From positions 1,736,001-1,800,000 of the forward strand of contig CM060985.1 in NCBI GenBank assembly GCA_030765065.1: 64,000 bases of DNA. The letters run 5' to 3'. The notes below the pieces were generated by a model. It saw nothing but the letters and a program-made list of their open reading frames with translations. It was not told where the DNA came from and did not search any database. Shown here piece by piece: positions 36,049-64,000 of the stretch. The first letter of the stretch is position 1. Each line of letters begins with the position of its first letter. The position numbers were made by a program, and so were the translations under genes. Origin of the DNA: Deroplatys truncata. Its lineage: Eukaryota; Arthropoda; Insecta; Mantodea; Mantidae.

Positions 36049-39000
36049 TACCTATGTTGTCTCCCCTTCAACATGGTAGGTAGAGAAATATGTAACCTTG
36101 GCTCTCTACCCCTTCACATGGTAGGTAGAGAAATATGTTACCTACGTTCTCTACCACTTTATTTGGTAGGAAGAGAAATATGTTAACTATGTTCTCTACT
36201 CCTTCATATGGTGTAGCTAGAGAAATATGTTACCTATGTTCTCTACTCCTTCATATGGTGTAGCTAGAGAAATATGTTACCTATGTTCTCTACCCCTTTA
36301 TATGGTGTAGCTAGAGAAATATGTTACCTATGTTCTCTACTCCTTCATATGGTGTAGCTAGAGAAATATGTTACCTATATTCTCTGTTCCTTTATATGGT
36401 AGGTAGAGAAATATGGTACCTATGTTCTCTACCCCTTTATATGGTAGGTAGAGAAATATGGTACCTATGTTATCTGCCCCTTTATATGGTAGGTGGAGAA
36501 ATGCGTTACCTATGTTCTCTACCCCTTTATATGGTAGGTAGAGCAATATGGTACCTATGTTCTCTACCCCTTTATATGCTAGGTAGAGAAATGCGTTACC
36601 TATGTTCTCTACCCCTTTATATGGTAAATAGAGAAATGCGTTACCTATGTTCTCTACCCCTTTATTTGGTAGGTAGCGAAATATGTTACCTATGTTCTCT
36701 ACCCCTTTATATGGTAGGTAGAGAAATGCGTTACCTATGTTCTCTACCCCTTTATATGGTGTAGCTAAAGAAATATGTTACCTATGTTCTCTACTCCTTC
36801 ATATGGTGTAGCTAGAGAAATATGTTACCTATGTTCTCTATTCCTTCATATGGTGTAGCTAGAGAAATATGTTACCTATGTTCTCTACTCCTTCATATGG
36901 TGTAGCTAGAGAAATATGTTACCTATCTTCTCTATTCCTTCATATGGTGTAGCTAGAGAAATATGTTACCTATGTTCTCTACTCCTTCATATGGTGTAGC
37001 TAGAGAAATATGTTACCTATGTTCTCTACTCCTTCATATGGTGTAGCTAGAGAAATATGTTACCTATGTTCTCTACCCCTTTATATGGTGTAGCTAGAGA
37101 AACATGTTACCTATGTTCTCTACTCCTTCATATGGTGTAGCTAGAGAAATATGTTACCTATGTTCTCTACTCCTTCAGATGGTAGCTAGAGAAATATGTT
37201 ACCTATGTTCTCTACCCCTTCATATGGTAGCTACAGAAATATGTTACCTATGTTCTCTACCCCTTCACATGGTAGCTAGAGAAATATGTTACCTATGTTC
37301 TCTACCCCTTCACATGGTAGCTAGAGAAATATGTTACCTATGTTCTCTAACCCTTCATATGGTAGCTACAGAAATATGTTACCTATGTTCTCTACCCCTT
37401 CACATGGTAGCTAGAGAAATATGTTACCTATGTTCTCTACTCCTTCACATGGTAGCTAGAGAAATATGTTACCCATATTCTCTAACCCTTCATATGGTAG
37501 GTAGAGAAATATGGTACCTATGTTCTCTACCCCTTTATATGGTAGGTAGAAACATGGTACCTATGTTCTCTACCCCTTTATATGGTAGGTAGAGAAATAT
37601 GGTACCTATATTCTCTACCCCTTTATATGGTAGGTAGAGAAATATAGTACCTATGTTCTCTACCCCTTTATATGGTAGGTAGAGAAATATGGTACCTATG
37701 TTATTTGCCCCTTTATATGGTAGGTAGAGAAATGCGTTACCTATGTTCTCTACCCCTTTATATGGTAGGTAGAACAATATGGTACCTATGTTCTCTACTC
37801 CTTCATATGGTAGGTAGAGAAATATGTTACCTATGTTCTCTACCCCTTCACATGGTAGGTAGAGAAATACGTTACCTATGTTCTCTACTCCTTCATATGG
37901 TAGGTAGAGAAATATGTTACCTATGTTCTCTACTCCTTCATATGGTAGCTAGAGAAATATGTTACCTATGTTCTCTAACCCTTCATATGGTGTAGCTAGA
38001 GAAATATGTTACCTATGTTCTCTACCCCTTCATATGGTAGCTAGAAAAATATGTTACCTATGTTCTCTACCCCTTCATATGGTAGCTAGAGAAATATGTT
38101 ACCTATGTTCTGTACTCCTTCATATGGTAGCTAGAGAAATATGTTACCTATGTTCTCTACCTCTTCTTATGGTGTAGCTAGAGAAATATGTTACCTATGT
38201 TCTCTACTCCTTCATATGGTGTAGCTAGAGAAATATGTCACCTATGTTCTCTACCCCTTCATATGGTGTAGCTAGAGAAATATGTTACCTATGTTCTCTA
38301 CTCCTTCATGTGGTGTAGCTAGAGAAATATGTTACCTATGTTTTCTACCACTTTATATGGTAGCTAGAGAAATATGTTACCTATGTCCTCTACTCCTTCA
38401 TATGGTAGCTAGAGAAATATGTTACCTATGTTATCTACCCCTTTATATGGTAGGTAGAGAAATATGTTACCTATGTTCTCTACAACTTCACATGGTAGCT
38501 AGAGAAATATGTTACCTATGTTCTCTACACCTTCATATGGCAGCTACAGAAATATGTTACCTATGTTCTCTACCCCTTCACATGGTAGCTAGAGAAATAT
38601 GTTATCTATGTTCTCTACCCCTTCACATGGTAGCTAGAGAAATATGTTACCTATGTTCTCTACCCCTTCATATGGTAGCTAGAGAAATATGTTACCTATG
38701 TTCTCTACTCCTTCACTTGGTAGCTAGAGAAATATGTTACCTATGTTATCTACCCCTTCACATGGAAGGTAGAGAAATATGTTACCTATGTTCTCTACTC
38801 CTTCATATGGTAGCTAGAGAAATATGTTACCTATGTTCTCTACTCCTTCATATGGTGTAGCTAGAGAAATATGTTACCTATGTTCTCTACTCCTTTATAT
38901 GGTAGTTAGAGAAATATGTTACTTATGTTCTCTACCCCTTTATATGGTAGCTAGAGAAATATGTTACCTATGTTCTCTACTCCTTCATATGGTACCTAGA

Positions 39001-42000
39001 GAAATATGTTACCTATGTTCTCTACTCCTTCATATGGTGTAGCTAGAGAAATATGTTACCTATGTTCTCTACCACTTTATATGGTAGCTAGAGAAATATG
39101 TTACCTACGTTCTCTACTCCTTCATATGGTAGCTCGAGAAATACGTTACCTATGTTCTCTACTCCTTCATATGGTGTAGCTAGAGAAATATGTTACCTAT
39201 GTTCTCTACCACTTTATATGGTAGCTAGAGAAATATGTTACCTATGTTCTCTACCCCTTTATATGGTAGGTAGAGAAATGCGTTAGAGAAATGCGGTACC
39301 TATGTTCTCTACCCTTTTATATGGTAGGTAGAGCAATATGTTACCTATGTTCTCTACCCCTTTATATGGTAGGTAGAGAAATGCGTTACCTATGTTCTCT
39401 ACCCCTTTATATGGTAGCTAGAGAAATGCGTTACCTATGTTCTGTACCCCTTTATATGGTACGTAGAGAAATGCGTTACCTATGTTCTCTACCACTTTAT
39501 ATGGTAGGTAGAGCAATATGTTACCTATGTTCTCTACTCCTTTATATGGTAGGTAGAGCAATATGTTACCTATGTTCCCTACTCCTTCATATGGTAGGTA
39601 GAGCAATATGTTACCTATGTTCTCTACTCCTTCATATGATAGCTAGAGAAATATGTTACCTATGTTCTCTACCCCTTCATATGGTAGCTAGAGAAATATG
39701 TTACCTATGTTCTCTACTCCTTCATATGATAGGTAGAGCAATATGTTACCTATGTTCTCTACTCCTTCATATGGTAGCTAGAGAAATATGTTACCTATGT
39801 TCTCTACTCCTTCATATGGTAGCTAGAGAAATATGTTACCTATGTTCTCTACTCCTTCATATGGTAGCTAGAGAAATACGTTACCTATGTTATCTACTCC
39901 TTCATATGGTAGGTAGAGCAATATGTTACCTATGTTCTCTACTCCTTCATATGGTAGCTAGAGAAATATGTTACCTATGTTCTCTACTCCTTCATATGGT
40001 AGCTAGAGAAATACGTTACCTATGTTCTCTACTCCTTCATATGGTAGCTAGAGAAATATGTTACCTATGTTATCTACTCCTTCATATGGTAGGTAGAGCA
40101 ATATGTTACCTATGTTCTCTACTCCTTCATATGGTAGCTAGAGAAATACGTTACCTATGTTCTCTACTCCTTCATATGGTAGCTAGAGAAATATGTTACC
40201 TATGTTCTCTACTCCTTCATATGGTAGCTAGAGAAATATGTTACCTATGTTCTCTACTCCTTCACATGGTGTAGCTAGAGAAATATGTTACCTATGTTCT
40301 CTACTCCTTCGCATGGTGTAGCTGGAGAAATATGTTACCTATGTTCTCTACTCCTTCACATGGTAGGTAGAGAAATATGTTACCTCTGTTCTCTACCCCT
40401 TCAAATGGTAGGTAGAGAAATACGTTAGCTATGGGATCTACCCCTTCACATGATACGTAGAGAAATACGTTAGCTATAATCTCTACCCATTCACATGGTA
40501 GGTAGAGAAATATGTTACCTATGTTCTCTACCCCTTCACATGGTAGGTAGAGAAATACGTTAGCTATGTTGTCTACCCCTTCACATGGTACGTAGAGAAA
40601 TACGTTAGCTATGTTGTCTACTCCTTCATATGGTGTAGCTAGAGAAATATGTTACCTATGTTCGCTACCCCTTTATATGGTGTAGCTAGAGAAATATGTT
40701 ACATATGTTCTCTACTCCTTCATATGGTGTAGCTAGAGAAATATCTTACCTATGTTCTCTACCCCTTTATATGGTAGCTAGAGAAATATGTTACCTATGT
40801 TCGCTACTCCTTCATATGGTGTAGCTAGAGAAATATGTTACCTATGTTCTCTACCCCTTTATATGGTAGCTAGAGAAATATGTTACCTATGTTCTCTACT
40901 CCTTCATATGGTAGATAGAGAAATATGTTACCTATGTTCTCTACCCCTTCATATGGTAGATAGAGAAATATGTTACCTATGTTCTCTACTCCTTCATATG
41001 GTAGGTAGAGAAATATGTTACCTATGTTCTCAACTCCTTCATATGGTAGGTAGAGAAATATGTTACCTAAGTTCACTACCCCTTCACATGGTAGGTAGAG
41101 AAATATGTTACCTATGTTCTCAACTCCTTCATATGGTAGGTAGAGAAATATGTTACCTATGTTCTCAACTCCTTCACATGGTAGATAGAGAAATATGTTA
41201 CCTATGTTCGCTACCCCTTCACATGGTAGGTAGAGAAATATGTTACCTATGTTCTCTACTCCTTCATATGGTAGCTAGAGAAATATGTTACCTATGTTCT
41301 CTACTCCTTCATTATGTAGGTAGAGAAATATGTTACCTATGTTCTCTACTCCTTCATATGGTAGGTAGAGAAATATGTTACCTATCTTCTCTACCCCTTC
41401 ACATGGTAGGAAGAGAAATACGTTACCTATGTTCTCTACTCCTTCATATGGTACGTAGAGAAATATGTTACCTATGTTCTCTACTCCTTCATATGGTAGC
41501 TAGAGAATTATGTTACCTATGTTCTCTACCCCTTCATATGGTGTAGCTAGAGAAATATGTTACCCATGTTCTCTACCCCTTCATATGGTAGCTAGAGAAA
41601 TATGTTACCTATGTCCTCTACTCCTTCATATGGTAGCTAGAGAAATTTGTTACCTATGTTCTCTACTCCTTCATATGGTAGCTAGAGAAATATGGTACCT
41701 ATGTTCTCTACTCCTTCATATGGTGTAGCTAGAGAAATATGTTACCTATGTTCTCTACTGCTTCATATGGTGTAGCTAGAGAAATATGTTACCTATGTTC
41801 TCTACCCCTTCATATGGTGTAGCTAGAGAAATATGTTACCTATGTTCTCTACTCCTTCATATGGTGTAACTAGAGAAATATGTTACCTATGTCCTCTACT
41901 CCTTCATATGGTAGCTAGAGAAATATGTTACCTATGTTCTCTACCCCTTTATATGGTAGGTAGAGAAATATGTTACCTATGTTCTCTACCCCTTCACATG

Positions 42001-42691
42001 GTAGCTAGAGAAATATGTTACCTATGTTCTCTACCCCTTCATATGGTAGCTACAGGAATATGTTACCTATGTTCTATACCCCTTCACATGGTAGGTAGAG
42101 AAATACGTTACCTATGTTCTCTACTCCTTCATATGGTAGGTAGAGAAATATGTTACCTATGTTCTCTACTCCTTCATATGGTGTAGCTAGAGAAATATGT
42201 TACCTATGTTCTCTACTCCTTTATATGGTAGTTAGAGAAATATGTTACCTATGTTCTCTACCCCTTTATATGGTGTGGCTAGAGAAATATGTTACCTATG
42301 TTCTCTACTCCTTCATATGGTGTAGCTAGAGAAATATGTTACCTATGTTCTCTACTCCTTCATATGGTGTAGCTAGAGAAATATGTAACCTATGTTCTCT
42401 ACTCCTTCATATGGTGTAGCTTGAGAAATATGTTACCTATGTTCTCTACCCCTTCATATGGTGTAGCTAGAGAAATATGTTACCTATGTTCTCTACTCCT
42501 TCATATGGTGTAGCTAGAGAAATATGTTACCTATGTTCTCTATCCTTTTATATGGTAGCTAGAGAAATATGTTACCTATGTCCTCTACTCCTTCATATGG
42601 TAGCTAGAGAAATATGTTACCTATGTTCTCTACCCCTTTATATGGTAGGTAGAGAAATATGTTACCTATGTTCTCTACCCCTTCACATGGT

Positions 42692-44597
42692 AGCTAGAGA
42701 AATATGTTACCTATGTTCTCTACCTCTTCATATGGTAGCTACAGAAATATTTTACCTATGTTCTCTACCCCTTCACATGGTAGCTAGAGAAATATGTTAC
42801 CTATGTTCTCTACCCCTTCTCATGGTAGCTAGAGAAATATGTTACCTATGTTCTCTACCCCTTCATATGGTAGCTACAGAAATATGTTACCTATGTTCTC
42901 TACCCCCTCACATGGTAACTAGAGAAATATGTTACCTATGTTCTCTACCCCTTCACATGGTAGCTAGAGAAATATGTTACCCATATTCTCTAACCCTTCA
43001 TATGGTAGGTAGAGAAATATGGTACCTATGTTCTCTACCCCTTTATATGGTAGGTAGAAACATGGTACCTATGTTCTCTACCCCTTTATATGGTAGGTAG
43101 AGAAATATGGTACCTATATTCTCTACCCCTTTATATGGTAGGTAGAGAAATATAGTACCTATGTTCTCTACCACTTTATATGGTAGGTAGAGAAATATGG
43201 TACCTATGTTATCTGCCCCTTTATATGGTAGGTAGAGAAATGCGTTACCTATGTTCTCTACCCCTTTATATGGTAGGTAGAACAATATGGTACCTATGTT
43301 CTCTACTCCTTCATATGGTAGGTAGAGAAATATGTTACCTATGTTCTCTACCCCTTCACATGGTAGGTAGAGAAATACGTTACCTATGTTCTCTACTCCT
43401 TCATATGGTACGTAGAGAAATATGTTACCTATGTTCTCTACTCCTTCATATGGTGGCTAGAGAAATATGTTACCTATGTTCTCTACCCCTTCATATGGTG
43501 TAGCTAGAGAAATATGTTACCTATGTTCTCTACCCCTTCATATGGTAGCTAGAGAAATATGTTACCTATGTTCTCTACCCCTTCATATGGTAGCTAGAGA
43601 AATATGTTACCTATGTTCTCTACTCCTTCATATGGTAGCTAGAGAAATATGTTACCTATGTTCTCTACCTCTTCATATGGTGTAGCTAGAGAAATATGTT
43701 ACCTATGTTCGCTACTCCTTCATATGGTGTAGCTAGAGAAATATGTTACCTATGTTCTCTACCCCTTCATATGGTGTAGCTAGAGAAATATGTTACCTAT
43801 GTTCTCTACTCCTTCATATGGTGTAGCTAGACAAATACGTTACCTATGTACTCTACCCCTTTATATGGTAGCTAGAGAAATATGTTACCTATGTCCTCTA
43901 CTCCTTCATATGGTAGCTAGAGAATTATGTTACCTATGTTCTCTACCCCTTTATTTGGTAGGTAGAGAAATATGTTACCTATGTTCTCTACCCCTTCACA
44001 TGTTAGCTAGAGAAATATGTTACCTATGTTCTCTACCCCTTCATATGGTAGCTACAGAAATATGTTACCTATGTTATCTACCCCTTTATAGTGTAGCTAG
44101 AGAAATATGTTACCTATGTTCTCTACAACTTCACATGGTAGCTAGAGAAATATGTTACCTATGTTCTTTACCCCTTCATATGGTAGCTACAGAAATATGT
44201 TACCTATGTTCTCTACCCCTTCACATGGTAGCAAGAGAAATAAGTTACCTATGTTCTCTACCCCTTCACATGCTAGCTAGAGAAATATGTTACCTATGTT
44301 CTCCACCCCTTCATATGGTAGCTAGAGAAATATGTTACCTATGTTCTCTACTCCTTCACTTGGTAGCTAGAGAAATATGTTACCTATGTTCTCTACCCCT
44401 TCACATGGAAGGTAGAGAAATATGTTACCTATGTTCTCTACTCCTTCATATGGTAGCTAGAGAAATATGTTACCTATGTTCTCTACTCCTTCATATGGTG
44501 TAGCTAGAGAAATATGTTACCTATGTTCTCTACTCCTTTATATGGTAGTTAGAGAAATATGTTACCTATGTTCTCTACCCCTTTATATGGTAGCTAG
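42692..44597. repeat. Segmental duplication inside the 45-bp array, copy 1
   Basis: Recurs at 45640-47544 with offset 2948 bp (2947 after a one-base loss near 47444). Rare variants such as AGCTACAGAAATATTTTACC, GGTAGAAACATGGTACC and CTTTATAGTGTAGC occur at matching places, so this is a copied block and not simply shared monomers. Confidence 0.88.
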
Positions 44598-45639
44598 AGA
44601 AATACGTTACCTATGTTCTCTACTCCTTCATATGGTAGCTAGAGAAATATGTTACCTATGTTCTCTACTCCTTCATATGGTGTAGCTAGAGAAATATGTT
44701 ACCTATGTTCTCTACCACTTTATATGGTAGCTAGAGAAATATGTTACCTACATTCTCTACTCCTTCATATGGTAGCTAGAGAAATATGTTACCTATGTTC
44801 TCTACTCCTTCATATGGTGTAGCTAGAGAAATATGTTACCTATGTTCTCTACTCCTTTATATGGTAGTTAGAGAAATATGTTACCTATGTTCTCTACCCC
44901 TTTATATGGTAGCTAGAGAAATATGTTACCTATGTTCTCAACTCCTTCATATGGTAGCTAGAGAAATATGTTACCTATGTTCTCTACACCTTCATATGGT
45001 GTAGCTAGAGAAATATGTTACCTATGTTCTCTACTCCTTCATATGGTAGCTAGAGAAATATGTTAACTATGTTCTCTACCCCTTTATACGGTAGGTAGTG
45101 AAATGCGTTAGAGAAATGCGGTACCTATGTTCTCTACCCCTTTATATGGTAGCTAGAGAAATATGTTACCTATGTTCTCTACCCCTTTATACGGTAGGTA
45201 GGGAAATGCGTTAGAGAAATGAGGAACGCATGTTCTCTACCCCTTTATATGGTAGGTAGAGAAATGCGTTAGAGAAATGCGGTACCTTTGTTCTCTACCC
45301 CTTTATATGGTAGCTAGAGAAAAATGTTACCTATGTTCTCTACCCCTTTATATGGTAGGTAGAGAAATGCGTTAGAGAAATGCGGTACCTATGTTCTCTA
45401 CCCTTTTATATGGTAGGTAGAGCAATATGTTACCTATGTTCTCTACCTCTTTATATAGTAGGTAGAGAAATGCGTTACCTATGTTCTCTACCCCTTTATA
45501 TGGTAGCTAGAGAAATGCGTTAGCTATGTTCTGTACCCCTTTATATGGTAGGTAGAGAAATGCGTTACCTATGTTCTCTACCACTTTATATGGTAGGTAG
45601 AGCAATATGTTACCTATGTTCTCCACTCCTTCATATGGT

Positions 45640-47544
45640 AGCTAGAGAAATATGTTACCTATGTTCTCTACCTCTTCATATGGTAGCTACAGAAATATTT
45701 TACCTATGTTCTCTACCCCTTCACATGGTAGCTAGAGAAATATGTTACCTATGTTCTCTACCCCTTCTCATGGTAGCTAGAGAAATATGTTACCTATGTT
45801 CTCTACCCCTTCATATGGTAGCTACAGAAATATGTTACCTATGTTCTCTACCCCTTCACATGGTAACTAGAGAAATATGTTACCTATGTTCTCTACCCCT
45901 TCACATGGTAGCTAGAGAAATATGTTACCCATATTCTCTAACCCTTCATATGGTAGGTAGAGAAATATGGTACCTATGTTCTCTACCCCTTTATATGGTA
46001 GGTAGAAACATGGTACCTATGTTCTCTACCCCTTTATATGGTAGGTAGAGAAATATGGTACCTATATTCTCTACCCCTTTATATCGTAGGTAGAGAAATA
46101 TAGTACCTATGTTCTCTACCACTTTATATGGTAGGTAGAGAAATATGGTACCTATGTTATCTGCCCCTTTATATGGTAGGTAGAGAAATGCGTTACCTAT
46201 GTTCTCTACCCCTTTATATGGTAGGTAGAACAATATGGTACCTATGTTCTCTACTCCTTCATATGGTAGGTAGAGAAATATGTTACCTATGTTCTCTACC
46301 CCTTCACATGGTAGGTAGAGAAATACGTTACCTATGTTCTCTACTCCTTCATATGGTACGTAGAGAAATATGTTACCTATGTTCTCTACTCCTTCATATG
46401 GTGGCTAGAGAAATATGTTACCTATGTTCTCTACCCCTTCATATGGTGTAGCTAGAGAAATATGTTACCTATGTTCTCTACCCCTTCATATGGTAGCTAG
46501 AGAAATATGTTACCTATGTTCTCTACCCCTTCATATGGTAGCTAGAGAAATATGTTACCTATGTTCTCTACTCCTTCATATGGTAGCTAGAGAAATATGT
46601 TACCTATGTTCTCTACCTCTTCATATGGTGTAGCTAGAGAAATATGTTACCTATGTTCGCTACTCCTTCATATGGTGTAGCTAGAGAAATATGTTACCTA
46701 TGTTCTCTACCCCTTCATATGGTGTAGCTAGAGAAATATGTTACCTATGTTCTCTACTCCTTCATATGGTGTAGCTAGACAAATACGTTACCTATGTACT
46801 CTACCCCTTTATATGGTAGCTAGAGAAATATGTTACCTATGTCCTCTACTCCTTCATATGGTAGCTAGAGAATTATGTTACCTATGTTCTCTACCCCTTT
46901 ATATGGTAGGTAGAGAAATATGTTACCTATGTTCTCTACCCCTTCACATGTTAGCTAGAGAAATACGTTACCTATGTTCTCTACCCCTTCATATGGTAGC
47001 TACAGAAATATGTTACCTATGTTATCTACCCCTTTATAGTGTAGCTAGAGAAATATGTTACCTATGTTCTCTACAACTTCACATGGTAGCTAGAGAAATA
47101 TGTTACCTATGTTCTTTACCCCTTCATATGGTAGCTACAGAAATATGTTACCTATGTTCTCTACCCCTTCACATGGTAGCAAGAGAAATAAGTTACCTAT
47201 GTTCTCTACCCCTTCACATGCTAGCTAGAGAAATATGTTACCTATGTTCTCCACCCCTTCATATGGTAGCTAAAGAAATATGTTACCTATGTTCTCTACT
47301 CCTTCACTTGGTAGCTAGAGAAATATGTTACCTATGTTCTCTACCCCTTCACATGGAAGGTAGAGAAATATGTTACCTATGTTCTCTACTCCTTCATATG
47401 GTAGCTAGAGAAATATGTTACCTATGTTCTCTACTCCTTCATATGTGTAGCTAGAGAAATATGTTACCTATGTTCTCTACTCCTTTATATGGTAGTTAGA
47501 GAAATATGTTACCTATGTTCTCTACCCCTTTATATGGTAGCTAG
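45640..47544. repeat. Segmental duplication inside the 45-bp array, copy 2
   Basis: Near-identical to 42692-44597; only a handful of substitutions were noticed. Its right end is cut by the assembly gap, so the duplicated unit may be longer. Confidence 0.88.
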
Positions 47545-48544
47545 NNNNNNNNNNNNNNNNNNNNNNNNNNNNNNNNNNNNNNNNNNNNNNNNNNNNNNNN
47601 NNNNNNNNNNNNNNNNNNNNNNNNNNNNNNNNNNNNNNNNNNNNNNNNNNNNNNNNNNNNNNNNNNNNNNNNNNNNNNNNNNNNNNNNNNNNNNNNNNNN
47701 NNNNNNNNNNNNNNNNNNNNNNNNNNNNNNNNNNNNNNNNNNNNNNNNNNNNNNNNNNNNNNNNNNNNNNNNNNNNNNNNNNNNNNNNNNNNNNNNNNNN
47801 NNNNNNNNNNNNNNNNNNNNNNNNNNNNNNNNNNNNNNNNNNNNNNNNNNNNNNNNNNNNNNNNNNNNNNNNNNNNNNNNNNNNNNNNNNNNNNNNNNNN
47901 NNNNNNNNNNNNNNNNNNNNNNNNNNNNNNNNNNNNNNNNNNNNNNNNNNNNNNNNNNNNNNNNNNNNNNNNNNNNNNNNNNNNNNNNNNNNNNNNNNNN
48001 NNNNNNNNNNNNNNNNNNNNNNNNNNNNNNNNNNNNNNNNNNNNNNNNNNNNNNNNNNNNNNNNNNNNNNNNNNNNNNNNNNNNNNNNNNNNNNNNNNNN
48101 NNNNNNNNNNNNNNNNNNNNNNNNNNNNNNNNNNNNNNNNNNNNNNNNNNNNNNNNNNNNNNNNNNNNNNNNNNNNNNNNNNNNNNNNNNNNNNNNNNNN
48201 NNNNNNNNNNNNNNNNNNNNNNNNNNNNNNNNNNNNNNNNNNNNNNNNNNNNNNNNNNNNNNNNNNNNNNNNNNNNNNNNNNNNNNNNNNNNNNNNNNNN
48301 NNNNNNNNNNNNNNNNNNNNNNNNNNNNNNNNNNNNNNNNNNNNNNNNNNNNNNNNNNNNNNNNNNNNNNNNNNNNNNNNNNNNNNNNNNNNNNNNNNNN
48401 NNNNNNNNNNNNNNNNNNNNNNNNNNNNNNNNNNNNNNNNNNNNNNNNNNNNNNNNNNNNNNNNNNNNNNNNNNNNNNNNNNNNNNNNNNNNNNNNNNNN
48501 NNNNNNNNNNNNNNNNNNNNNNNNNNNNNNNNNNNNNNNNNNNN
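47545..48544. other. Assembly gap of exactly 1000 N
   Basis: A run of 1000 N, evidently a placeholder of unknown true size. On its left is 45-bp satellite and on its right the left arm of a palindrome, so both the satellite edge and the left end of the polymerase unit are hidden here. Open frames through the N run are meaningless. Confidence 0.98.
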
Positions 48545-50332
48545 CTCAAGACTAATTAGCACAATGAAGTCCAATGCCCTAGATCACCATATTTATAGAG
48601 GGAGCACGAACCTTTTAGATCAATCATAAACTCGCTCCATAACCACCTGTATATGATCGCTCAACGTGTACTAACCCCCCAGCCATATAACCTCAAGTCT
48701 AGAGACAGGATGTTTATGACGTCACACCCAGAGACAGGATGTCTGGCAGCATCAAACACGTTTAAACTCGTCTCATAACTACCTGCTTATGCTGTCACAC
48801 CAGCAAGAGAAGTATTCCCACACGCTCATTCAGACATATATTTCAAATTCAAGCCCACTACCACCATCACCACCTATTGTACCAAGGTTAATTCAAGCTG
48901 TATTATCACAATACTTAAAAGTAAAAGCTTAAAAGGAAACCTAGAAGATTTTCCCCCTTATTTACTTAATTATTTCATGTTTTTATTCCCTTTTCAATTC
49001 TTCCTTTCCATCTTCTCACAGAAAGACCATTACATTTCACTACAATCATGAGAAAAGCAATTTTTCCAGAGTTACACAGATTCTAAGCTTCTAAATCGAA
49101 CCTGGTAATACTTTTAATAAATGTATTTTAGCTCCCCAATATCAGCAGCTACCATTTAATCTTTACTCGAACCTGATATGATCCATAAGCTTGAAGATAT
49201 ATGAAATCACCCTTCGGGATTCGATCTGAGTACTTTAAAGTAATATTTGTCACGATAACGATATTTAAGGACTAGATACTCTGTTTGCGTTTACCTTGAC
49301 ATGTTTATCTAAATTAAATTACGAGTTATTAAATTTTTGCAAGTAAATTTCATTGAATCGGTATTCGAACCCGGAACACCAGGAACAAAATAATTTATAA
49401 TATTAGTCTGACATGTTAAACAAAGCTGTATGTAGTTACATCATTGATCTAAGTGATATATTCTAGTGTACAGAGGAAAATTAAGAAAGTCATTAAAAGA
49501 TGGGGAATCGAACCAAGCACAACTGATTGGCAATTATATACAGCATTAATTACCCATCATAGAAGCTATCAATCATGCTTTAGTCCACTCCTCTACCTCA
49601 CTTAGTTCCTGAGATAATGAAAATTTTAAAATTAGGATCGAACCCAGGACGTCATGTATCTAATTACACATCCACAAGATACCACCTAATAACATAAACG
49701 CAATAAAGTTTATTTGGCGTCTTTATCTTAATTGGTTTAGGAGTTATTAAATTTATAAGTAAATTCCATCGAATCAGTATTCGAACCCAGAACACCAAGA
49801 ACAAAATAATTTATAATATGAGTTTGGTATGCTTAAAGGCGCTGTATGTAGTTACAGCATCAATCTAACTGATATTTTCTAGAGTATAGAGTAAAATTAA
49901 GGAAGTCATTAAAAAATCGGGATTCGAACTAGAGACAACCGATTAAAAATTATATACAGTGTTAATTACACATTATAACAGCTATCAAACATGCTTTGGT
50001 CCATTCCTCTAGCTTTCTTAGTTTCCGAGATAATAAAGTTTTTAAAATTAAGGATCGAACCCAGGACACCAGGTACCAAAATATACATCCACAAGAAAGT
50101 ACATAATGACATTAATGTAATAAAGTTTACTTGGCGTCTTTATCTTAATTAGTCTCCGAGTTATTAGAAGATGAATTTGTATTCACTCCTAGGATTCGAG
50201 CCCAGGCATCCCGGTCAACTTGGAACAATACCCTAATGACGCGGCGCATTCCAAAGAATTGATTAGTTTTTATCCCAATGTTGTATCTCTTTTCATTCAG
50301 GAGATATAAGCGATTAAACAGTAGAAATAAAA
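48545..50332 (-). repeat. Left arm of a near-perfect palindrome
   Basis: This 1788-bp arm is the reverse complement of 50406-52193 (positions sum to 100738). In my reading the two arms differ only at 49650/51088 and 50130/50608, both transitions, with no indels. The arm begins at the first base after the N gap, so the real arm may be longer. It carries the mirror image of everything in the right arm, including the TATA motif and the TCGA-core motif ladder. Confidence 0.95.
48561..48597 (-). promoter_or_regulatory. Mirrored copy of the candidate promoter, facing the gap
   Basis: The inverse of the TATAAATA and initiator-like pair upstream of the polymerase, on the minus strand within the left palindrome arm. 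It would drive transcription into the N gap. The gap could therefore hide an inverted second copy of the polymerase region, but nothing in the visible sequence shows this. Confidence 0.4.
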
Positions 50333-50405
50333 ACCCGGTTCTGGCACACAGAGAGATGCCGACATCTGATAAAGTTCTTTGATCTATGCCGGCATGCCCC
50401 GCCCA
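50333..50405. other. 73-bp centre of the palindrome
   Basis: Non-palindromic spacer between the two arms, except for a perfect 10-bp palindrome ATGCCGGCAT at 50386-50395. It is GC-richer than the arms. If the arms are element ends joined head to head, this would be the junction. Confidence 0.9.
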
Positions 50406-52193
50406 TTTTATTTCTACTGTTTAATCGCTTATATCTCCTGAATGAAAAGAGATACAACATTGGGATAAAAACTAATCAATTCTTTGGAATGCGCCGCGTC
50501 ATTAGGGTATTGTTCCAAGTTGACCGGGATGCCTGGGCTCGAATCCTAGGAGTGAATACAAATTCATCTTCTAATAACTCGGAGACTAATTAAGATAAAG
50601 ACGCCAAATAAACTTTATTACATTAATGTCATTATGTACTTTCTTGTGGATGTATATTTTGGTACCTGGTGTCCTGGGTTCGATCCTTAATTTTAAAAAC
50701 TTTATTATCTCGGAAACTAAGAAAGCTAGAGGAATGGACCAAAGCATGTTTGATAGCTGTTATAATGTGTAATTAACACTGTATATAATTTTTAATCGGT
50801 TGTCTCTAGTTCGAATCCCGATTTTTTAATGACTTCCTTAATTTTACTCTATACTCTAGAAAATATCAGTTAGATTGATGCTGTAACTACATACAGCGCC
50901 TTTAAGCATACCAAACTCATATTATAAATTATTTTGTTCTTGGTGTTCTGGGTTCGAATACTGATTCGATGGAATTTACTTATAAATTTAATAACTCCTA
51001 AACCAATTAAGATAAAGACGCCAAATAAACTTTATTGCGTTTATGTTATTAGGTGGTATCTTGTGGATGTGTAATTAGATACATGACATCCTGGGTTCGA
51101 TCCTAATTTTAAAATTTTCATTATCTCAGGAACTAAGTGAGGTAGAGGAGTGGACTAAAGCATGATTGATAGCTTCTATGATGGGTAATTAATGCTGTAT
51201 ATAATTGCCAATCAGTTGTGCTTGGTTCGATTCCCCATCTTTTAATGACTTTCTTAATTTTCCTCTGTACACTAGAATATATCACTTAGATCAATGATGT
51301 AACTACATACAGCTTTGTTTAACATGTCAGACTAATATTATAAATTATTTTGTTCCTGGTGTTCCGGGTTCGAATACCGATTCAATGAAATTTACTTGCA
51401 AAAATTTAATAACTCGTAATTTAATTTAGATAAACATGTCAAGGTAAACGCAAACAGAGTATCTAGTCCTTAAATATCGTTATCGTGACAAATATTACTT
51501 TAAAGTACTCAGATCGAATCCCGAAGGGTGATTTCATATATCTTCAAGCTTATGGATCATATCAGGTTCGAGTAAAGATTAAATGGTAGCTGCTGATATT
51601 GGGGAGCTAAAATACATTTATTAAAAGTATTACCAGGTTCGATTTAGAAGCTTAGAATCTGTGTAACTCTGGAAAAATTGCTTTTCTCATGATTGTAGTG
51701 AAATGTAATGGTCTTTCTGTGAGAAGATGGAAAGGAAGAATTGAAAAGGGAATAAAAACATGAAATAATTAAGTAAATAAGGGGGAAAATCTTCTAGGTT
51801 TCCTTTTAAGCTTTTACTTTTAAGTATTGTGATAATACAGCTTGAATTAACCTTGGTACAATAGGTGGTGATGGTGGTAGTGGGCTTGAATTTGAAATAT
51901 ATGTCTGAATGAGCGTGTGGGAATACTTCTCTTGCTGGTGTGACAGCATAAGCAGGTAGTTATGAGACGAGTTTAAACGTGTTTGATGCTGCCAGACATC
52001 CTGTCTCTGGGTGTGACGTCATAAACATCCTGTCTCTAGACTTGAGGTTATATGGCTGGGGGGTTAGTACACGTTGAGCGATCATATACAGGTGGTTATG
52101 GAGCGAGTTTATGATTGATCTAAAAGGTTCGTGCTCCCTCTATAAATATGGTGATCTAGGGCATTGGACTTCATTGTGCTAATTAGTCTTGAG
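50406..52193 (+). repeat. Right arm of the palindrome, with a ladder of T-loop-like motifs
   Basis: Mirror of 48545-50332. Inside are ten TCGA-core motifs resembling the tRNA T-loop or pol III B box (mostly GGTTCGANNCC or close variants), all in one orientation. They lie at 50539, 50680, 50811, 50954, 51097, 51227, 51370, 51514, 51568 and 51639. Seven intervals are 130-144 bp and the last two 54 and 71 bp. A 416-bp three-motif block is present twice in tandem (about 50590-51005 and 51006-51421) at roughly 80 percent identity. No complete tRNA can be folded around the motifs. Confidence 0.88.
52141..52177 (+). promoter_or_regulatory. Candidate core promoter of the polymerase gene
   Basis: TATAAATA at 52141-52148 is followed 30 bp later by TTCATTGT at about 52170-52177, a fair match to an arthropod initiator. 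The polymerase start codon is at 52307, giving a leader of about 135 nt. The motif lies in the palindrome, so an identical mirrored copy exists at 48590-48597, reading left. Confidence 0.5.
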
Positions 52194-52306
52194 GTGTTAA
52201 CATCGTGTTCTCTCCAAGAATAATCAGCTTTCTAAAGTGGTGTCAAGGTGAAGAGGTCTACATTTCATTGATCAGTGATTAATACGTTATTGCATCAAGA
52301 ATAAAG

Positions 52307-55300
52307 ATGAATAACTCAGCGTATAAGGATATTATTCCAAGCGCTACTGGATATGCATGTGGAAAATGTGGGAAGAAGTTCCTCCGAGGTTATGACAAGA
52401 GAAGACACGAGATGAGCTGTAAGAAGCTCTTCAAATGTAAACATTGTAATGTAACCTTCAAAGATGGTTATAAGGGGCAGCGACACGAAGATATATGTGA
52501 AATAAGCAGCCCTCAGAAGAAAAGAAGATTGGAGCCAACTAAACATCAGTTACTGTCAACAATGGAGGACTGTGATATGAAAGAATACGAAACTTCATTC
52601 GAAGGACGATTGAAATCGTATTTTATACGATGCGAATCAGCTAAGGACCTGAATATGTATCTGCAAGAGGCAAAACAACGTATAATCCAGGCTGTGCATA
52701 AAGAGCTTAGCATTCATAAGAGTGTTAAAATTAATCTGCTGGCTGAGTGTCGATTTGTTAACAGTATTGGAGAAACCTGTGACAAAACATTTAAAACACG
52801 GAATCAAGCTGTTTTCCTGGAAACTGATCTGGAGTCAACGATGGAAGTGAAATTCAAGAAATTGGTGACTGAAATGGAGGAGTCTCAGCTTAAGGGTAGC
52901 AGCTGGGCTTTGCTTGCTGTGGAAGGAGTTCGACTTCGTATCAACAAGTACAACCCGTTACGAGGAAGTAGCTACATACCACTACCGTCATCTGTCGGAG
53001 CTAAAGAAGCGTGTATAAACATTCAGAACTTTACCGACGATAAATGTTTCATGTACTCTATATTAGCTAAATTCATAGGGAAGGATGCGCAACGTGTGAG
53101 CAAATACAAACAACTTCAAGATAAGTACGACTTCAGCTGTGTTTCCTACCCTACTCCACTTTCTCAAATACCTAAATTTGAGAAGTTTAACAATATGTCT
53201 ATTAACGTTTTCGGGTTGGATGAGAAGCACGAAGTGTATCCGATAAAGGTTGCTGATATTGAACTACCTGAACATCGCGACCTGCTACTATTGAATGACA
53301 GCAGTGGAAAACATCACTACGTGTATATAAAGAATTTTGAGAAACTCGTTCGACGCCAGAAAACTAACCATAATGGACGGGTTTATACTTGTAAGCGCTG
53401 CTTTACACATTTTGATGATCGATATGGACGAAGTGGACAGGAAAAACTACAAGAACATGCAGCCGTCTGTATTCAACATGGTGTTGCAAGGGTAGTTATG
53501 CCTACCAAGGAGAAATCAATTGTACAGTTTAAAAATGTTGAGAGGATGCTGAAAGTACCTTATGTCATCTATGCTGATTTTGAGAGTATTCTCACTCCAT
53601 GCCATACGTGTATACCCAATCCTGAAACTTCCTATACAACCCCTTATCAAGAGCACACACCAATGAGCTTCTGTGTTTACGTGAAGCCTACATCCAGTGT
53701 TGAACATCTCGAAACTGGTCTTCCTAAGCAACCCTATGTGTATCGTGGTGCTGATGCTGCTCAGAAGTTTATGCTGTACCTTACATCTCTTGCAGAAATG
53801 ATTGGTAATATATACAAATCTGCTGAGCCTCTGAAACTTACGGATCAACAGCAAAAGGATTTCGAATCTTCTACGACATGCTACTTGTGTGGAAAACCCT
53901 TTACAGAAGAGAACTATAAAGTACGCGACCATGATCACATCAGCGGTGAATATCGTGGAAGTCTTCATAATGAATGTAATTTAGCCTGTAAAACACCTAA
54001 ATATATACCAGTCTTCATGCATAACCTTAGCGGATATGACTCGCATTTCATTGTAAAGGACCTGGGGTGCACAAGTGAACGTGTGGAGGTAATTCCTAAC
54101 TCTGAAGAAAGCTATATCTCATTCACCAAGTATGTAGGAGATATAAAGCTTCGATTTGTGGATAGCTTCCGATTCCTCAGTACAAGCTTGGATAAGTTGG
54201 TAAAAAATCTAACCTCGTATCCTGAAACGCTAAAGTACTTTGGAGAAGACAAATTGAAGTTGATGACCCGTAAGGGTGTATTTCCATATGATTTTGTTAC
54301 GTCATGGGATGTCCTGAACGAGACCTGTTTGCCTCCTAAGGACTACTTCTACAATAGATTAAATGAAGAAGAAATTACTGATACTGACTACGATCATGCT
54401 AGAAATGTATGGGAGCTGTTTAATGTGAGAAACCTGGGAGAGTACAGCGATCTCTACTTAACTTCGGATGTACTTCTCCTAGCTGATGTCTTTGAGACAT
54501 TCAGAGAGCAAACCCTTAAAACACACAAAGTTGATCCTGCCCATTATTTTACCTCTCCAGGTCTTACATGGGACGCCATGTTACTGTATACTGGAATTAA
54601 GTTAGAGCTGTTACAAGATTATGATCAACTACTCATGGTGGAATCAGGTATAAGAGGAGGTTTATGCCAAGTTTCCCATCGGTATGCTGAGGCTAATAAC
54701 ACTTATATGGATAAGTTTGATCCGTCGAGACCAACCCAATTTATCACATACGAGGACGCTAATAACCAATATGGGTGGGCAATGTGTCACGCTCTTCCTT
54801 TTGCTGGATTTCAGTGGGTGTCACCTGAAGAAATCAACTTAGAAACACTACAAGAAAATGATCCTCATGGGTACATATTAGAAGTCGACATCGAGTATCC
54901 TGCTGAACTTCACGATCTACACAACGATCTACCTTTCCTGCCAGAGTGTATGAAACCATTGGAATCATCTACAAAGAAACTGATACCTCATCTTGGACCT
55001 CGAAAGAAGTATGTAGTGCATTACATGGCTTTGAAGCAAGCTCTTAGTCATGGACTACGACTAACAAAAATCCATCGTGTGCTACAATTCCGACAGTCTC
55101 AGTGGTTGAAACCTTATGTGGAATTTGACAACAGGCTACGACAACAAGCTGCAAATGATTTCGAGAAGGATCTCTACAAGCTCTTTAACAACGCTATGTT
55201 TGGAAAAACTATGGAGAACCTGCGTAACCGCATGGATATACGACTGGTGACCAATGAAAAAACTCTAGAGAAGCTGATCGCCAAGCCTACGTTTATCGAC

Positions 55301-55960
55301 AGGACGATATATGCTGATAATCTAGCTGCTGTACATATGGCCTCTCGTCAGATTGTATTCAACAAGCCTATATACATTGGTATGAGTGTGTTGGACATCT
55401 CCAAGACATTAATGTATAACTATCATTACGACATTTTGTTGCCTTATTATGGAGCTGAAAACCTGAAGCTTATGTATATGGACACTGATTCGTTCATTCA
55501 TCGTGTAACAACTGAAGATGTGTACCAGGACAAGCTACGTTTTCTTGAGCATCTCGATACATCTGATTACCCTGCCAACCATATATGTTACTCTACTCAG
55601 AACAAGAAGGTATTGGGAAAATTTAAAGATGAGGCTAATAGCAAAATCATCCTACGCTTTGTTGGACTACGTCCTAAGATGTATGCCTTAGATATTCAAG
55701 GGTCAATGATAAAAAAGATTAAAGGTATAAAACGTAGCGCTATTAAGCAGTACATTTCGTTTGACAGCTATACAGACTGTCTTAAAACCTGTGAAATCAT
55801 CAGAACACCTATGAATCTGATCCTATCACGAAAGCATGCTCTTGCTACAGTGCAAGTGAATAAAATTGCATTGACTCCGTTTGATGATAAAAGAATTATT
55901 GCTGAGGATGGGATAACGACATATGCGTATGGACATTACGCCATTACAAACAGTGCTTAA
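52307..55960 (+). CDS. Protein-primed family B DNA polymerase (Polinton/adintovirus-like)
   Basis: An intact 1217-codon gene. Its product would copy linear DNA from a protein primer. N-terminal residues 18-64 form two C2H2-type zinc fingers (CGKCGKKF, CKHCNVTF). The region around residues 197-390 carries blocks usual in these large invertebrate proteins (YNPLRGSSYIPLP, DDKCFMYSI, IPKFEKFN, and a third cysteine/histidine cluster CKRCFTHF). The 3'-5' exonuclease follows with D424/E426 (YADFES), HNLSGYD at 572-578 and SDVLLLAD near 721. A CxxC...RDHDH...CN segment at 525-561, between the first two exonuclease motifs, resembles endonuclease VII-type HNH domains. Polymerase motifs are D817 (EDANNQYGW), KLFNNAMFGK at 958-967 and MDTDS at 1058-1062. 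The gene looks whole. No partner genes are seen, so the host element family is uncertain. Confidence 0.88.
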   Translation: MNNSAYKDIIPSATGYACGKCGKKFLRGYDKRRHEMSCKKLFKCKHCNVTFKDGYKGQRHEDICEISSPQKKRRLEPTKHQLLSTMEDCDMKEYETSFEGRLKSYFIRCESAKDLNMYLQEAKQRIIQAVHKELSIHKSVKINLLAECRFVNSIGETCDKTFKTRNQAVFLETDLESTMEVKFKKLVTEMEESQLKGSSWALLAVEGVRLRINKYNPLRGSSYIPLPSSVGAKEACINIQNFTDDKCFMYSILAKFIGKDAQRVSKYKQLQDKYDFSCVSYPTPLSQIPKFEKFNNMSINVFGLDEKHEVYPIKVADIELPEHRDLLLLNDSSGKHHYVYIKNFEKLVRRQKTNHNGRVYTCKRCFTHFDDRYGRSGQEKLQEHAAVCIQHGVARVVMPTKEKSIVQFKNVERMLKVPYVIYADFESILTPCHTCIPNPETSYTTPYQEHTPMSFCVYVKPTSSVEHLETGLPKQPYVYRGADAAQKFMLYLTSLAEMIGNIYKSAEPLKLTDQQQKDFESSTTCYLCGKPFTEENYKVRDHDHISGEYRGSLHNECNLACKTPKYIPVFMHNLSGYDSHFIVKDLGCTSERVEVIPNSEESYISFTKYVGDIKLRFVDSFRFLSTSLDKLVKNLTSYPETLKYFGEDKLKLMTRKGVFPYDFVTSWDVLNETCLPPKDYFYNRLNEEEITDTDYDHARNVWELFNVRNLGEYSDLYLTSDVLLLADVFETFREQTLKTHKVDPAHYFTSPGLTWDAMLLYTGIKLELLQDYDQLLMVESGIRGGLCQVSHRYAEANNTYMDKFDPSRPTQFITYEDANNQYGWAMCHALPFAGFQWVSPEEINLETLQENDPHGYILEVDIEYPAELHDLHNDLPFLPECMKPLESSTKKLIPHLGPRKKYVVHYMALKQALSHGLRLTKIHRVLQFRQSQWLKPYVEFDNRLRQQAANDFEKDLYKLFNNAMFGKTMENLRNRMDIRLVTNEKTLEKLIAKPTFIDRTIYADNLAAVHMASRQIVFNKPIYIGMSVLDISKTLMYNYHYDILLPYYGAENLKLMYMDTDSFIHRVTTEDVYQDKLRFLEHLDTSDYPANHICYSTQNKKVLGKFKDEANSKIILRFVGLRPKMYALDIQGSMIKKIKGIKRSAIKQYISFDSYTDCLKTCEIIRTPMNLILSRKHALATVQVNKIALTPFDDKRIIAEDGITTYAYGHYAITNSA

Positions 55961-56319
55961 AAGAATGTAAGTTAAAGATAAAGATTTTATCGTGAGTCTA
56001 CAATCTTAAAAAAGAAGGTTATCTGTGTGCTGTATATGCATATAGCTGACGCCTGATGAAGAAAGAAGAAGATGGAAGGGAAGGTGGTAACCCTGCCATT
56101 AGGAGCAATCCTAGTGCTAGTCTCAAGCCTAGATAAAAGGGGAGAGACATCTACACCGAACCAAAATAAAGGTATGTTGACGTAAAGCTTTTCAATTTGT
56201 GAACCAATATGCAGTTTATCCCTCTCCGCATCGTACAATAACTGTTTAACATATAATAAGTTTGTAAGATTTAGAAAAAAAGTATATAAATTGTTGTAAC
56301 GTTGGTGAGAAATGTTTTA
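55961..56319. other. 3' flank of the polymerase gene
   Basis: About 360 bp of unique sequence. AATAAA at 56165-56170, some 205 bp after the stop codon, is a candidate polyadenylation signal. A 37-codon open frame at about 56073-56186 has a hydrophobic stretch but no recognisable similarity and is not called as a gene. Confidence 0.45.
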
Positions 56320-57430: not shown

Positions 57431-57439
57431 AACTGTTAG

Positions 57440-57640: not shown

Positions 57641-57689
57641 CGTGATGGGCATGTCTAGAATTAGCGTTCTAACATTGACATGAAACAGT

Positions 57690-59095: not shown

Positions 59096-62000
59096 CCTAT
59101 GTTATCTACCCCTTTATAGGATAGCTAGAGAAATATGTTACCTATGTTCTCTACAACTTCACATGGTAGCTAGAGAAATATGTTACCTATGTTCTCTACC
59201 CCTTCATATGGTAGCTACCGAATTATGTTACCTATGTTCTCTACCCCTTCACATGGTAGCTAGAGAAATATGTTACCTATGTTCTCTACCCCTTCACATG
59301 GTAGCTAGAGAAATATGTTACCTATGTTCTCTACCCCTTCATATGGTAGGTAGAGAAATATGTTACCTATGTTCTCTACTCCTTCACTTGGTAGCTAGAG
59401 AAATATGTTACCTATGTTCTCTACCCCTTCACATGGTAGGTAGAGAAATATGTTACCTATGTTCTCTACTCCTTCATATGGTAGTTAGAGAAATATGTTA
59501 CCTATGTTCTCTACTCCTTCATATGCTGTAGCTAGAGAAATATGTTACCTATGTTCTCTACTCCTTTATATGGTAGTTAGAGAAATATGTTACCTATGTT
59601 CTCTACCCCTTTATATGGTAGCTAGAGAAATATGTTACCTATGTTCTCTACTCCTTCATATCGTAGCTAAAGAAATATGTTACCTATGTTCTCTACTCCA
59701 TCATATGGTGTAGCTAGAGAAATATGTTAGCTATGTTCTCTACCACTGTATATGGTAGCTAGAGAAATATGTTACCTACGTTCTCTAGTCCTTCATATGG
59801 TAGCTAGAGAAATATGTTAACTATGTTCTCTACCCCTTTATATGGTAGCTAGAGAAATATGTTACCTATGTTATCTACTCCTTCATATGGTAGCTAGAGA
59901 AATACGTTACCTATGTTCTCTTCTCCTTCATATGGTGTAGCTAGAGAAATATGTTACCTATGTTCTCTACCCCTTCATATGGTGTAGCTAGAGAAATATG
60001 TTAGCTATGTTCTCTACTCCTTCATATGGTGTAGCTAGAGAAATATGTTACCTATGTTCTCTACCCCTTTATATGGTAGCTAGAGAAATATGTTACCTAT
60101 ATCCTCTACTTCTTCATATTGTAGCTAGAGAAATATGTTACCTATGTTCTCTACCCCTTTATATGTTAGGTAGAGAAATATGTTACCTATGTTCTCTACT
60201 CCTTCATATGGTGTAGCTAGAGAAATATGTTACCTATGTTCTCTACCCCTTTATATGGTGTAGCTAGAGAAATATGTTACCTATGTTCTCTACTCCTTCA
60301 TATGGTGCAGCTAGAGAAATATGTTACCTATGTTCTCTACCCCTTTATATGGTAGCTAGAGAAATGCGTTACCTATGTTCTCTACCCCTTTATATGGTAG
60401 CTAGAGAAATATGTTACCTATGTTCTCTACCCCTTTGTATGGTAGCTAGAGAAATACGTTACCTATGTTCTCTACCCCTTAATATGGTAGCTAGAGAAAT
60501 GCGTTACCTATGTTCTCTACCCCTTTATATGGTAGCTAGAGAAATTTGTTACCTATGTTCTCTACCCCTTCATATGGTTGGTAGAGCAATATGTTACCTA
60601 TGTTCTCTACTCCTTCATATGGTAGGTAGAGAAATTTGTTACCCATGTTCTCTACTCCTTCATATGGTAGGTAGAGCAATATGTTACCTATGTTCTCTAC
60701 TCCTTCATATGGTAGGTAGAGCAATATGTTACCTATGTTCTCTACTCCTTCATATGGTAGGTAGAGCAATATGTTACCTATGTTCTCTACTCCTTCATAT
60801 GGTAGCTAGAGCAATATGTTACCTATGTTCTCTACTCCTTCATATGGTAGGTAGAGCAATATGTTACCTATGTTCTCTACTCCTTCATATGGTAGGTAGA
60901 GAAATATGCTACCTATGTTCTCTACCCCTTCATATGGTAGCTAGAGCAATATGTTACCTATGTTCTCTACCCCTTCTCATGGTAGCTAGAGAAATATGTT
61001 ACCTATGTTCTCTACCCCTTCACATGGTAGCTAGAGAAATATGTTACCTATGTTCTCTACCCCTTCATATGGTAGCTACAGAAATATGTTACCTATGTTC
61101 TCTACATCTTCACATGGTAGCTAGAGAAATATGTTACCTATGTTCTCTACCTCTTCATATGGTAGCTAGAGAAATATGTTACCTATGTTCTCTACTCCTT
61201 TACTTGGTAGCTAGAGAAATATGTTACCTATGTTCTCTACCCCTTCACATGGTAGGTAGAGAAATATGTTACCTATGTTCTCTACTCCTTCATATGGTAG
61301 CTAGAGAAATATATATACCTATGTTCTCTACTCCTTCATATGGTGTAGCTAGAGAAATATGTTACCTATGTTCTCTACTCCTTTATATGGTAGTTAGAGA
61401 AATATGTTGCCTATGTTCTCTACCCCTTTATATGGTAGCTAGAGAAATATGTTACCTATGTTCTCTACTCCTTCATATGGTAGCTAGAGAAATATGTTAC
61501 CTATGTTTTCTACTCCTTCATATGGTGTAGCTAGAGAAATATGTTTCCTATGTTCTCTACCCCTTTATATGGTAGCTAGAGAAATATGTTACCTATGTTC
61601 TCTACTCCTTCATATGGTAGCTAGAGAAATATGTTACCTATGTTCTCTACCCTTTTATATGGTAGCTAGAGAAATATGTTACCTATGTTCTCTACTCCTT
61701 CATATGGTGTAGCTAGAGAAATATGTTACCTATGTTCTCTACTCCTTCATATGGTGTAGCTAGAGAAATATGTTACCTATGTTCTCTACTCCTTCATATG
61801 GTGTAGCTAGAGAAATATGTTACCTATGTTCTCTACTCCTTCATATGGTGTAGCTAGAGAAATATGTTACCTATGTTCTCTACTCCTTCATATGGTGTAG
61901 CTAGAGAAATATGTTACCTATATTCTCTACTCCTTCATATGGTGTAGCTAGAGAAATATGTTACCTATGTTCTTTACTCCTTCATATGGTGTAGCTAGAG

Positions 62001-64000
62001 AAATATGTTACCTATATTCTCTACTCCTTCATATGGTGTAGCTAGAGAAATATGTAACCTATGTTCTCTACTCCTTTATATGGTAGCTAGAGAAATATGT
62101 TACCTATGTTCTCTACTCCTTCATATGGTGTAGCTAGAGAATATGTAACCTATGTTCTCTACTCCTTTATATGGTAGCTAGAGAAATATGTTACCTATGT
62201 TGTCTAACCCTTTATATGGTAGGTAGAGAAATGCGTTACCTATGTTCTCTACCCCTTTATATGGTAGGTAGAGAAATGCGTTACCTATGTTCTCTACCCC
62301 TTTATATGGTAGGTAGAGCAACATGTTACCTATGTTCTCTACCCCTTTATATGGTAGGTAGAGAAATATGTTACCTATGTTCTCTACCCCTTTATATGGT
62401 AGGTAGAGCAATATGTTACCTATGTTCTCTACCCCTTTATATGGTAGGTAGAGCAATATGTTACCTATGTTCTCTACCCCTTTATATGGTAGGTAGAGAA
62501 ATATGTTACCTATGTTCTCTACTCCTTCATATGGTGTAGCTAGAGAAATATGTTACCTATGTTCTCTACCCCTTTATATGGTGTAGCTAGAGAAATATGT
62601 TACCTATGTTCTCTACTCCTTCATATGGTGTAGCTAGAGAAATATGTTACCTATGTTCTCTACCCCTTTATATGGTAGCTAGAGAAATGCGTTACCTATG
62701 TTCTCTACCCCTTTATATGGTAGCTAGAGAAATATGTTACCTATGTTCTCTACCCCTTTGTATGGTAGCTAGAGAAATACGTTACCTATGTTCTCTACCC
62801 CTTAATATGGTAGCTAGAGAAATGCGTTACCTATGTTCTCTACCCCTTTATATGGTAGCTAGAGAAATTTGTTACCTATGTTCTCTACCCCTTCATATGG
62901 TAGGTAGAGCAATATGTTACCTATGTTCTCTACTCCTTCATATGGTAGGTAGAGAAATTTGTTACCTATGTTCTCTACTCCTTCATATGGTAGGTAGAGC
63001 AATATGTTACCTATGTTCTCTACTCCTTCATATGGTAGGTAGAGCAATATGTTACCTATGTTCTCTACTCCTTCATATGGTAGGTAGAGCAATATGTTAC
63101 CTATGTTCTCTACTCCTTCATATGGTAGCTAGAGCAATATGTTACCTATGTTCTCTACTCCTTCATATGGTAGGTAGAGCAATATGTTACCTATGTTCTC
63201 TACTCCTTCATATGGTAGGTAGAGCAATATGTTACCTATGTTCTCTACTCCTTCATATGGTAGCTAGAGCAATATGTTACCTATGTTCTCTACTCCTTCA
63301 TATGGTAGGTAGAGCAATATGTTACCTATGTTCTCTACTCCTTCATATGGTAGGTAGAGCAATATGTTACCTATGTTCTCTACTCCTTCATATGGTAGCT
63401 AGAGCAATATGTTACCTATGTTCTCTACTCCTTCATATGGTAGCTAGAGCAATATGTTACCTATGTTCTCTACTCCTTCATATGGTAGGTAGAGCAATAT
63501 GTTACCTATGTTCTCTACTCCTTCATATGGTAGGTAGAGCAATATGTTACCTATGTTCTCTACTCCTTCATATGGTAGGTAGAGCAATATGTTACCTATG
63601 TTCTCTACTCCTTCATATGGTAGCTAGAGAAATATGTTACCTGTGTTCTCTACTCCTTCATATGGTAGGTAGAGCAATATTTTACCTATGTTCTCTACCC
63701 CTTTATATGGTAGGTAGAGCAATATGTTACCTGTGTTCTCTAATCCTTCATATGGTAGGTAGAGCAATATGTTACCTATGTTCTCTACTGCTTTATATGG
63801 TAGGTAGAGAAATGCGTTACCTATGTTCTCTACCCCTTTATATGGTAGGTAGAGCAATATGTTACCTGTGTTCTCTAATCCTTCATATGGTAGGTAGAGC
63901 AATATGTTACCTATGTTCTCTACCCCTTTGTATGGTAGGTAGAGCAATATGTTACCTGTGTTCTCTAATCCTTCATATGGTAGGTAGAGCAATATGTTAC
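59096..64000. repeat. 45/47-bp satellite array, right block
   Basis: Same family as 36049-47544. The first monomers after the insert match, variant by variant, those starting at about 47021 and 44073 (TTATCTACCCCTTTATA, then CTACAACTTCACATGG). This places the right flank in the same higher-order phase. A block at about 60.27-60.90 kb is repeated at about 62.59-63.22 kb (offset 2323 bp). From 62.9 kb to the edge AGCAATATG variants dominate. The array runs off the right edge. Confidence 0.97.

Follow-up and report, generated by a model that had tools for sequence, protein, structure and literature searches.

A near-perfect palindrome of 3.65 kb abuts an assembly gap in the window, the whole stretch of 64,000 nucleotides of Deroplatys truncata DNA that was analysed, and we regard it as rather more probably a technical fold-back at a contig end than a recent real inverted duplication. 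The palindrome stands beside a gene for a family-B DNA polymerase, which is an ordinary member of an already known kind and to which we would not attribute the structure.

Geometry and edges of the palindrome

Reverse-complement comparison gave two inverted arms of 1788 nt each, complementary at 1786 of 1788 positions (0.11% apart) and free of indels, on either side of a loop of 73 nt; a repeat search gave the same pair (Table 1). The initial annotation had reported these arms, the absence of indels and two transitions, all of which were confirmed to the base, and it had placed the start of the left arm at the first base past the gap, as we also find. The gap is the single run of N in the window. 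The palindrome has no unique left flank, its left arm abutting the N run directly. The right edge is the mirror of the gap edge and is no demonstrated boundary of its own; the palindrome may be longer than seen or may end within the gap. Outside 48.5-52.2 kb, inverted 20-mers are common to only four pairs of 200-nt bins in the window, all at 31.2-34.0 kb. A chance origin of the palindrome was rejected on this rarity together with the identity of the arms.

Table 1. Features of the palindrome and its neighbourhood, in window positions.
Feature	Position	Strand	Found by
45-nt satellite array ending at the gap, 11.5 kb	36048..47544	+	tandem-repeat search
Assembly gap, exactly 1000 N, cutting off the left side	47545..48544	.	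arm comparison
Left arm, inverse copy of the right arm, beginning directly after the gap	48545..50332	-	arm comparison and repeat search
Loop, 73 nt, GC 55% against 34% in the arm	50333..50405	.	arm comparison
Imperfect hairpin core of the loop	50356..50395	.	self-inverse score (1.1% of 2000 shuffles scored at least as high); two folds
Right arm	50406..52193	+	arm comparison and repeat search
Tandem repeat of 416-nt units, old (2.1 copies, about 82% alike); its mirror copy lies in the left arm	50572..51434	+	tandem-repeat search and self-comparison
Arm difference, left-arm counterpart 50130	50608	.	arm comparison
Arm difference, left-arm counterpart 49650; the left-arm version makes a CpG	51088	.	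arm comparison
TATAAATA within the arm, 166 nt upstream of the polymerase start codon; mirrored at 48590-48597	52141..52148	+	motif search
Family-B DNA polymerase, Polinton/adintovirus type, 1217 aa, with an endonuclease-VII-like zinc motif	52307..55960	+	ORF, Pfam, BLASTP and fold search
Array of the 45-nt satellite on the right side of the polymerase block	59096..64000	+	tandem-repeat search

Both arm differences are C versus T in the orientation of the left arm; in that of the polymerase each site reads G in the left arm and A in the right, and one of the left-arm Gs lies in a CpG. When the other 416-nt unit is taken as the reference, it agrees with the right arm at 50608 and with the left arm at 51088, a pattern that fits one change having arisen in each arm. 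The pattern at these two sites would, however, fit base damage, residual error or heterozygosity equally well. The earlier suggestion that the differences speak mildly for a real structure is weak for this reason, and they do not decide between a real palindrome and an artefact. The 416-nt units within one arm are about 18% apart as against 0.11% for the arms, and the arms therefore parted very recently or never, a point in favour of a technical fold-back.

Contents of the loop, the arms and the surrounding sequence

The loop contains an imperfect hairpin, and one of its two folds also took in 13 nt of each arm. On reading the sequence, the 23 nt to the left of the stem and the 10 nt to its right are no inverse copies, and simple priming at that stem therefore did not make the arms; formation of the arms by self-priming at the loop's own hairpin was rejected. 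The loop was also compared with six adapter sequences. The SMRTbell score was reached by 6.4% of 500 shuffles, that of the old ONT hairpin adapter by 4.8%, and those of the other four by 61-100%. As there is no clear match to the SMRTbell sequence, a missed adapter of this type is not favoured; only some types of artefact would leave an adapter in the loop.

The octamer TATAAATA sits near the outer end of the arm and may serve as a promoter of the polymerase gene. The arm is also rich in the motif TTCGA, with 9 occurrences against 1.5 expected and a highest count of 6 among 1000 simulated sequences. Many of those in the right arm occur as GGTTCGA, with spacings of about 131, 143 and 143 nt, and resemble a tRNA B box. 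Scans of the window gave no Rfam match at the gathering threshold and no tRNA gene, so these motifs are not recognised genes.

The 45-nt satellites to the left and right of the polymerase block are the same satellite in the same orientation, and the block may be an insertion into a 45-nt array. As 45 nt correspond to 15 codons, the long repetitive ORFs of this satellite are by-products. Elsewhere in the window there are a 60-nt satellite (1-5184) and a 78-nt satellite (14101-30690), the latter with a strong GC skew of about -0.2 to -0.5 (2-kb windows, 14 to 30 kb). Two 1.29-kb copies of a Tc1/mariner-like (DDE_3) element, 97.3% identical, lie within the 78-nt array at 17600-18890 and 21730-23019, as if a stretch of the array had been duplicated together with its insertion. 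A LINE occupies 10531-14112 on the minus strand in two frames, one with the endonuclease and the start of the reverse transcriptase (12619-14112), the other with reverse transcriptase and RNase H (10531-12552). The presence of LINE and Tc1-type elements would by itself suggest an animal host. Inverted arms at 31365-31491 and 33774-33900 (127 nt, 92% alike, 2.3 kb apart) are probably the ends of an old DNA transposon (TIR-like element).

The polymerase gene and its relatives

The palindrome had been described as lying directly upstream of a protein-primed DNA polymerase. The position holds, with 113 nt between the arm and the ATG, and the polymerase is borne out as a matter of family by its PF03175, BLASTP and fold matches. 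Its reading frame is uninterrupted. Two C-terminal pieces of the protein matched PF03175 (DNA_pol_B_2) with E values of 1.1e-25 and 7.6e-26. The full-length Pfam scan did not return PF03175; the Endonuclease_7 motif narrowly passed its cut-off, four families fell short of theirs, and at E<=1 the scan found in the N-terminal part no domain of the kind sought. By BLASTP, 429 of 1124 aligned positions are identical to the PolB of IMG/VR contig IMGVR_UViG_3300028392_002905.

Residues 401-1217 were modelled with low confidence (mean pLDDT 57). In a fold search of this model against the PDB, the eight best matches were phi29 polymerase (E 5.4e-11 to 1.4e-8, TM-scores 0.31-0.46), whereas searching the solved structures by sequence brought up no polymerase at E<=1. 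The first entries in a viral-library fold search were PolBs of MELD virus, of densovirus-labelled records and of adintoviruses. Residues D817, D1059, D1061, N573, D578, Y717 and D721 (numbering +400) are invariant across six aligned sequences, and D424 and E426 are shared with the PolB of the viral contig; all of these would be motif residues of the family. Together, the sequence and model comparisons support "protein-primed DNA polymerase" as a predicted family assignment. Adintoviruses are in part defined by PolBs of this kind, according to a preprint (PMC11071296), and the Polinton PolB is described in PMC4061559 as protein-primed, with a possible N-terminal terminal protein.

Besides its PolB, the IMG/VR contig encodes a Pox_A32-like ATPase and an rve integrase that scored just above the cut-off; for another of its proteins, of 477 aa, the capsid match (E 0.028) stayed below the threshold. 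Among viral contigs, the protein scan and a second motif pattern found nothing, the first pattern found one contig, and two alignment scans found that same contig. The scan of prokaryote genome contigs yielded 6 relatives from 114 candidate stretches, all 6 in metagenome-bin records. Contigs with Polinton-type PolBs (loci L005-L010) are filed under bacterial bins (Gastranaerophilales, Spirochaetes, Alphaproteobacteria and others), labels that probably reflect binning contamination from eukaryotes or their viruses. At L009 an rve integrase lies downstream of PolB on the opposite strand, as in L002. None of the seven loci compared (L002, L005-L010) has an inverted self-match of more than 59 columns; contigs of this length could scarcely contain one, and the result counts in neither direction.

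Origin of the palindrome

The initial annotation had considered a head-to-head pair, a fold-back replication product and an artefact, a list that is sound, and had tied the structure to linear replicons, a connection that our data do not support. The weights that we attach below to a technical, a chromosomal and an element-made origin are a matter of judgement.

If the fold-back is technical, the true sequence would probably be single-copy, comprising the loop, the right arm, the promoter and the polymerase gene. A chimeric long read at the left end of the contig, either self-primed or made of template plus complement, would have turned back on itself at the loop, so that 1788 nt or more of the arm followed in inverted form. 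As no overlap existed on the left, the assembler would have retained this read, and consensus building or polishing would have brought the arms to near-identity. The fold-back would then have originated in a read and not in the chromosome, and the neighbouring solitary PolB would not be its cause. What we find is a near-perfect inverted copy at a contig end with no unique flank. A left side that never reaches unique DNA is as a read-level fold-back predicts, unlike a small real palindrome crossed by long reads; and since the 11.5-kb array of the 45-nt satellite was assembled, reads should have crossed a real palindrome of 3.65 kb. Reads of this kind are on record: figures given in PMC12870357 put fold-backs at about 0.55-0.6% of ONT genomic reads, and those given in PMC6218980 put palindromes at 4,714 of 940,162 reads in an unamplified PacBio control and at 221,001 of 462,138 and 195,263 of 447,364 reads in two amplified sets. 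PMC12870357 illustrates an artefactual fold-back whose halves are separated by about 2 kb, so the loop does not exclude an artefact. On the other side, the PacBio HiFi set described in the same source had virtually no fold-backs, which counts against an artefact, as does a loop with no clear adapter match. The absence of indels over 1788 nt means that the left arm is no unpolished noisy read, and a contig would also be expected to break here if the palindrome were real and large.

A recent real inverted duplication is the less probable reading, though one that we consider quite possible. A break or stalled fork near the loop would have folded on a short inverted repeat and been copied outward, to give arms that are either young or kept alike by gene conversion. 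The duplication may exceed the visible length, and a second copy of the polymerase may have disappeared through collapse at the gap; collapse of a large palindrome would likewise end the contig here. Arms that are identical except for two transitions agree with such an event, as do the distribution of the shared base over the two arms, as if each had changed once, and the loop, whose sequence is specific and contains a hairpin core. For yeast mutants, the review PMC7999016 documents fold-back priming at inverted repeats 5-9 nt long; it also describes longer and more similar arms with shorter spacers as riskier for genome stability, which speaks against a real duplication, as does the missing unique left flank. 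When the left contig (35000-47544) was compared with 52194-64000, there were 182 plus-strand matches and no minus-strand match; provided that the contigs are joined correctly and the gap has its stated size, the palindrome therefore cannot extend across the gene, and a much larger one is excluded as well.

We hold it to be very unlikely that a linear, protein-primed element of Polinton/adintovirus type supplied the arms as its terminal inverted repeats, whether through head-to-head joining or through fold-back in replication. The neighbouring gene is indeed a PolB of this type with an intact frame, and Polintons carry long inverted terminal repeats (as described in PMC4061559). However, no third copy of the arm occurs in the window, whether beyond the gene or in any other part, and while PolB itself matched there with an E value of 0, none of seven query proteins for integrase, ATPase and other virus proteins (the L009 integrase and, of the 11 other ORFs listed for L002, 6) matched below E 0.1, whereas L002 and L009 have an rve integrase directly downstream of PolB. 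Matches to capsid, rve integrase and packaging ATPase genes beside PolB, and terminal inverted repeats flanking a single element on both sides, were likewise absent from the window, the far side of the gap being unread. What follows the gene is a series of tandem repeats of 102, 21, 69 and 45 nt, not the rest of an element, and in the readable sequence the polymerase gene is solitary among satellites. Nor does the inner arm end carry the GTGTGTGT tip that is reported for one Polinton and for BmBDV in PMC4061559, though tips may vary. Because the window lacks an integrase, an ATPase, a capsid remnant and a further copy of the arm, head-to-head terminal repeats are unsupported, and Polinton terminal repeats were rejected. 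Even less probable is a real palindrome made by the polymerase's own linear protein-primed replicon through a fold-back or head-to-head joining upstream of the gene, which would leave the promoters in mirror image and another copy of the polymerase concealed in the gap; among the literature matches listed, no title concerns a palindrome upstream of a Polinton-type PolB.

Should the palindrome be an artefact, it illustrates that contig ends at gaps can bear convincing false inverted duplications, which are then taken for the biology of the nearest gene. Should it be real, it is a very young palindrome with a 73-nt spacer, of a class expected to be unstable, adjoining a gene for a polymerase of protein-primed type, and fold-back duplication or element-driven joining becomes testable at one locus.

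Three known systems invite comparison. With Polinton/Maverick and adintovirus (MELD virus) elements the locus shares a PolB of the protein-primed kind, at the identity given above; here, however, the gene stands alone among satellites, and neither a match to integrase, ATPase or capsid nor proven terminal repeats occur in the window. Chromosomal fold-back and inverted-duplication palindromes resemble ours in their long, near-identical arms and in a short spacer with inverted repeats; the difference is that here neither side shows an outer boundary by which a duplication would be recognised. Fold-back artefacts of reads and assemblies differ in their centres, since fewer than half of the fold-back artefact reads described in PMC12870357 have a centre longer than 11 nt, as against 73 nt in our loop, and they are alike, in the accounts of PMC12870357 and PMC6218980, in having near-perfect inverted copies, a short centre and a contig end at a gap.
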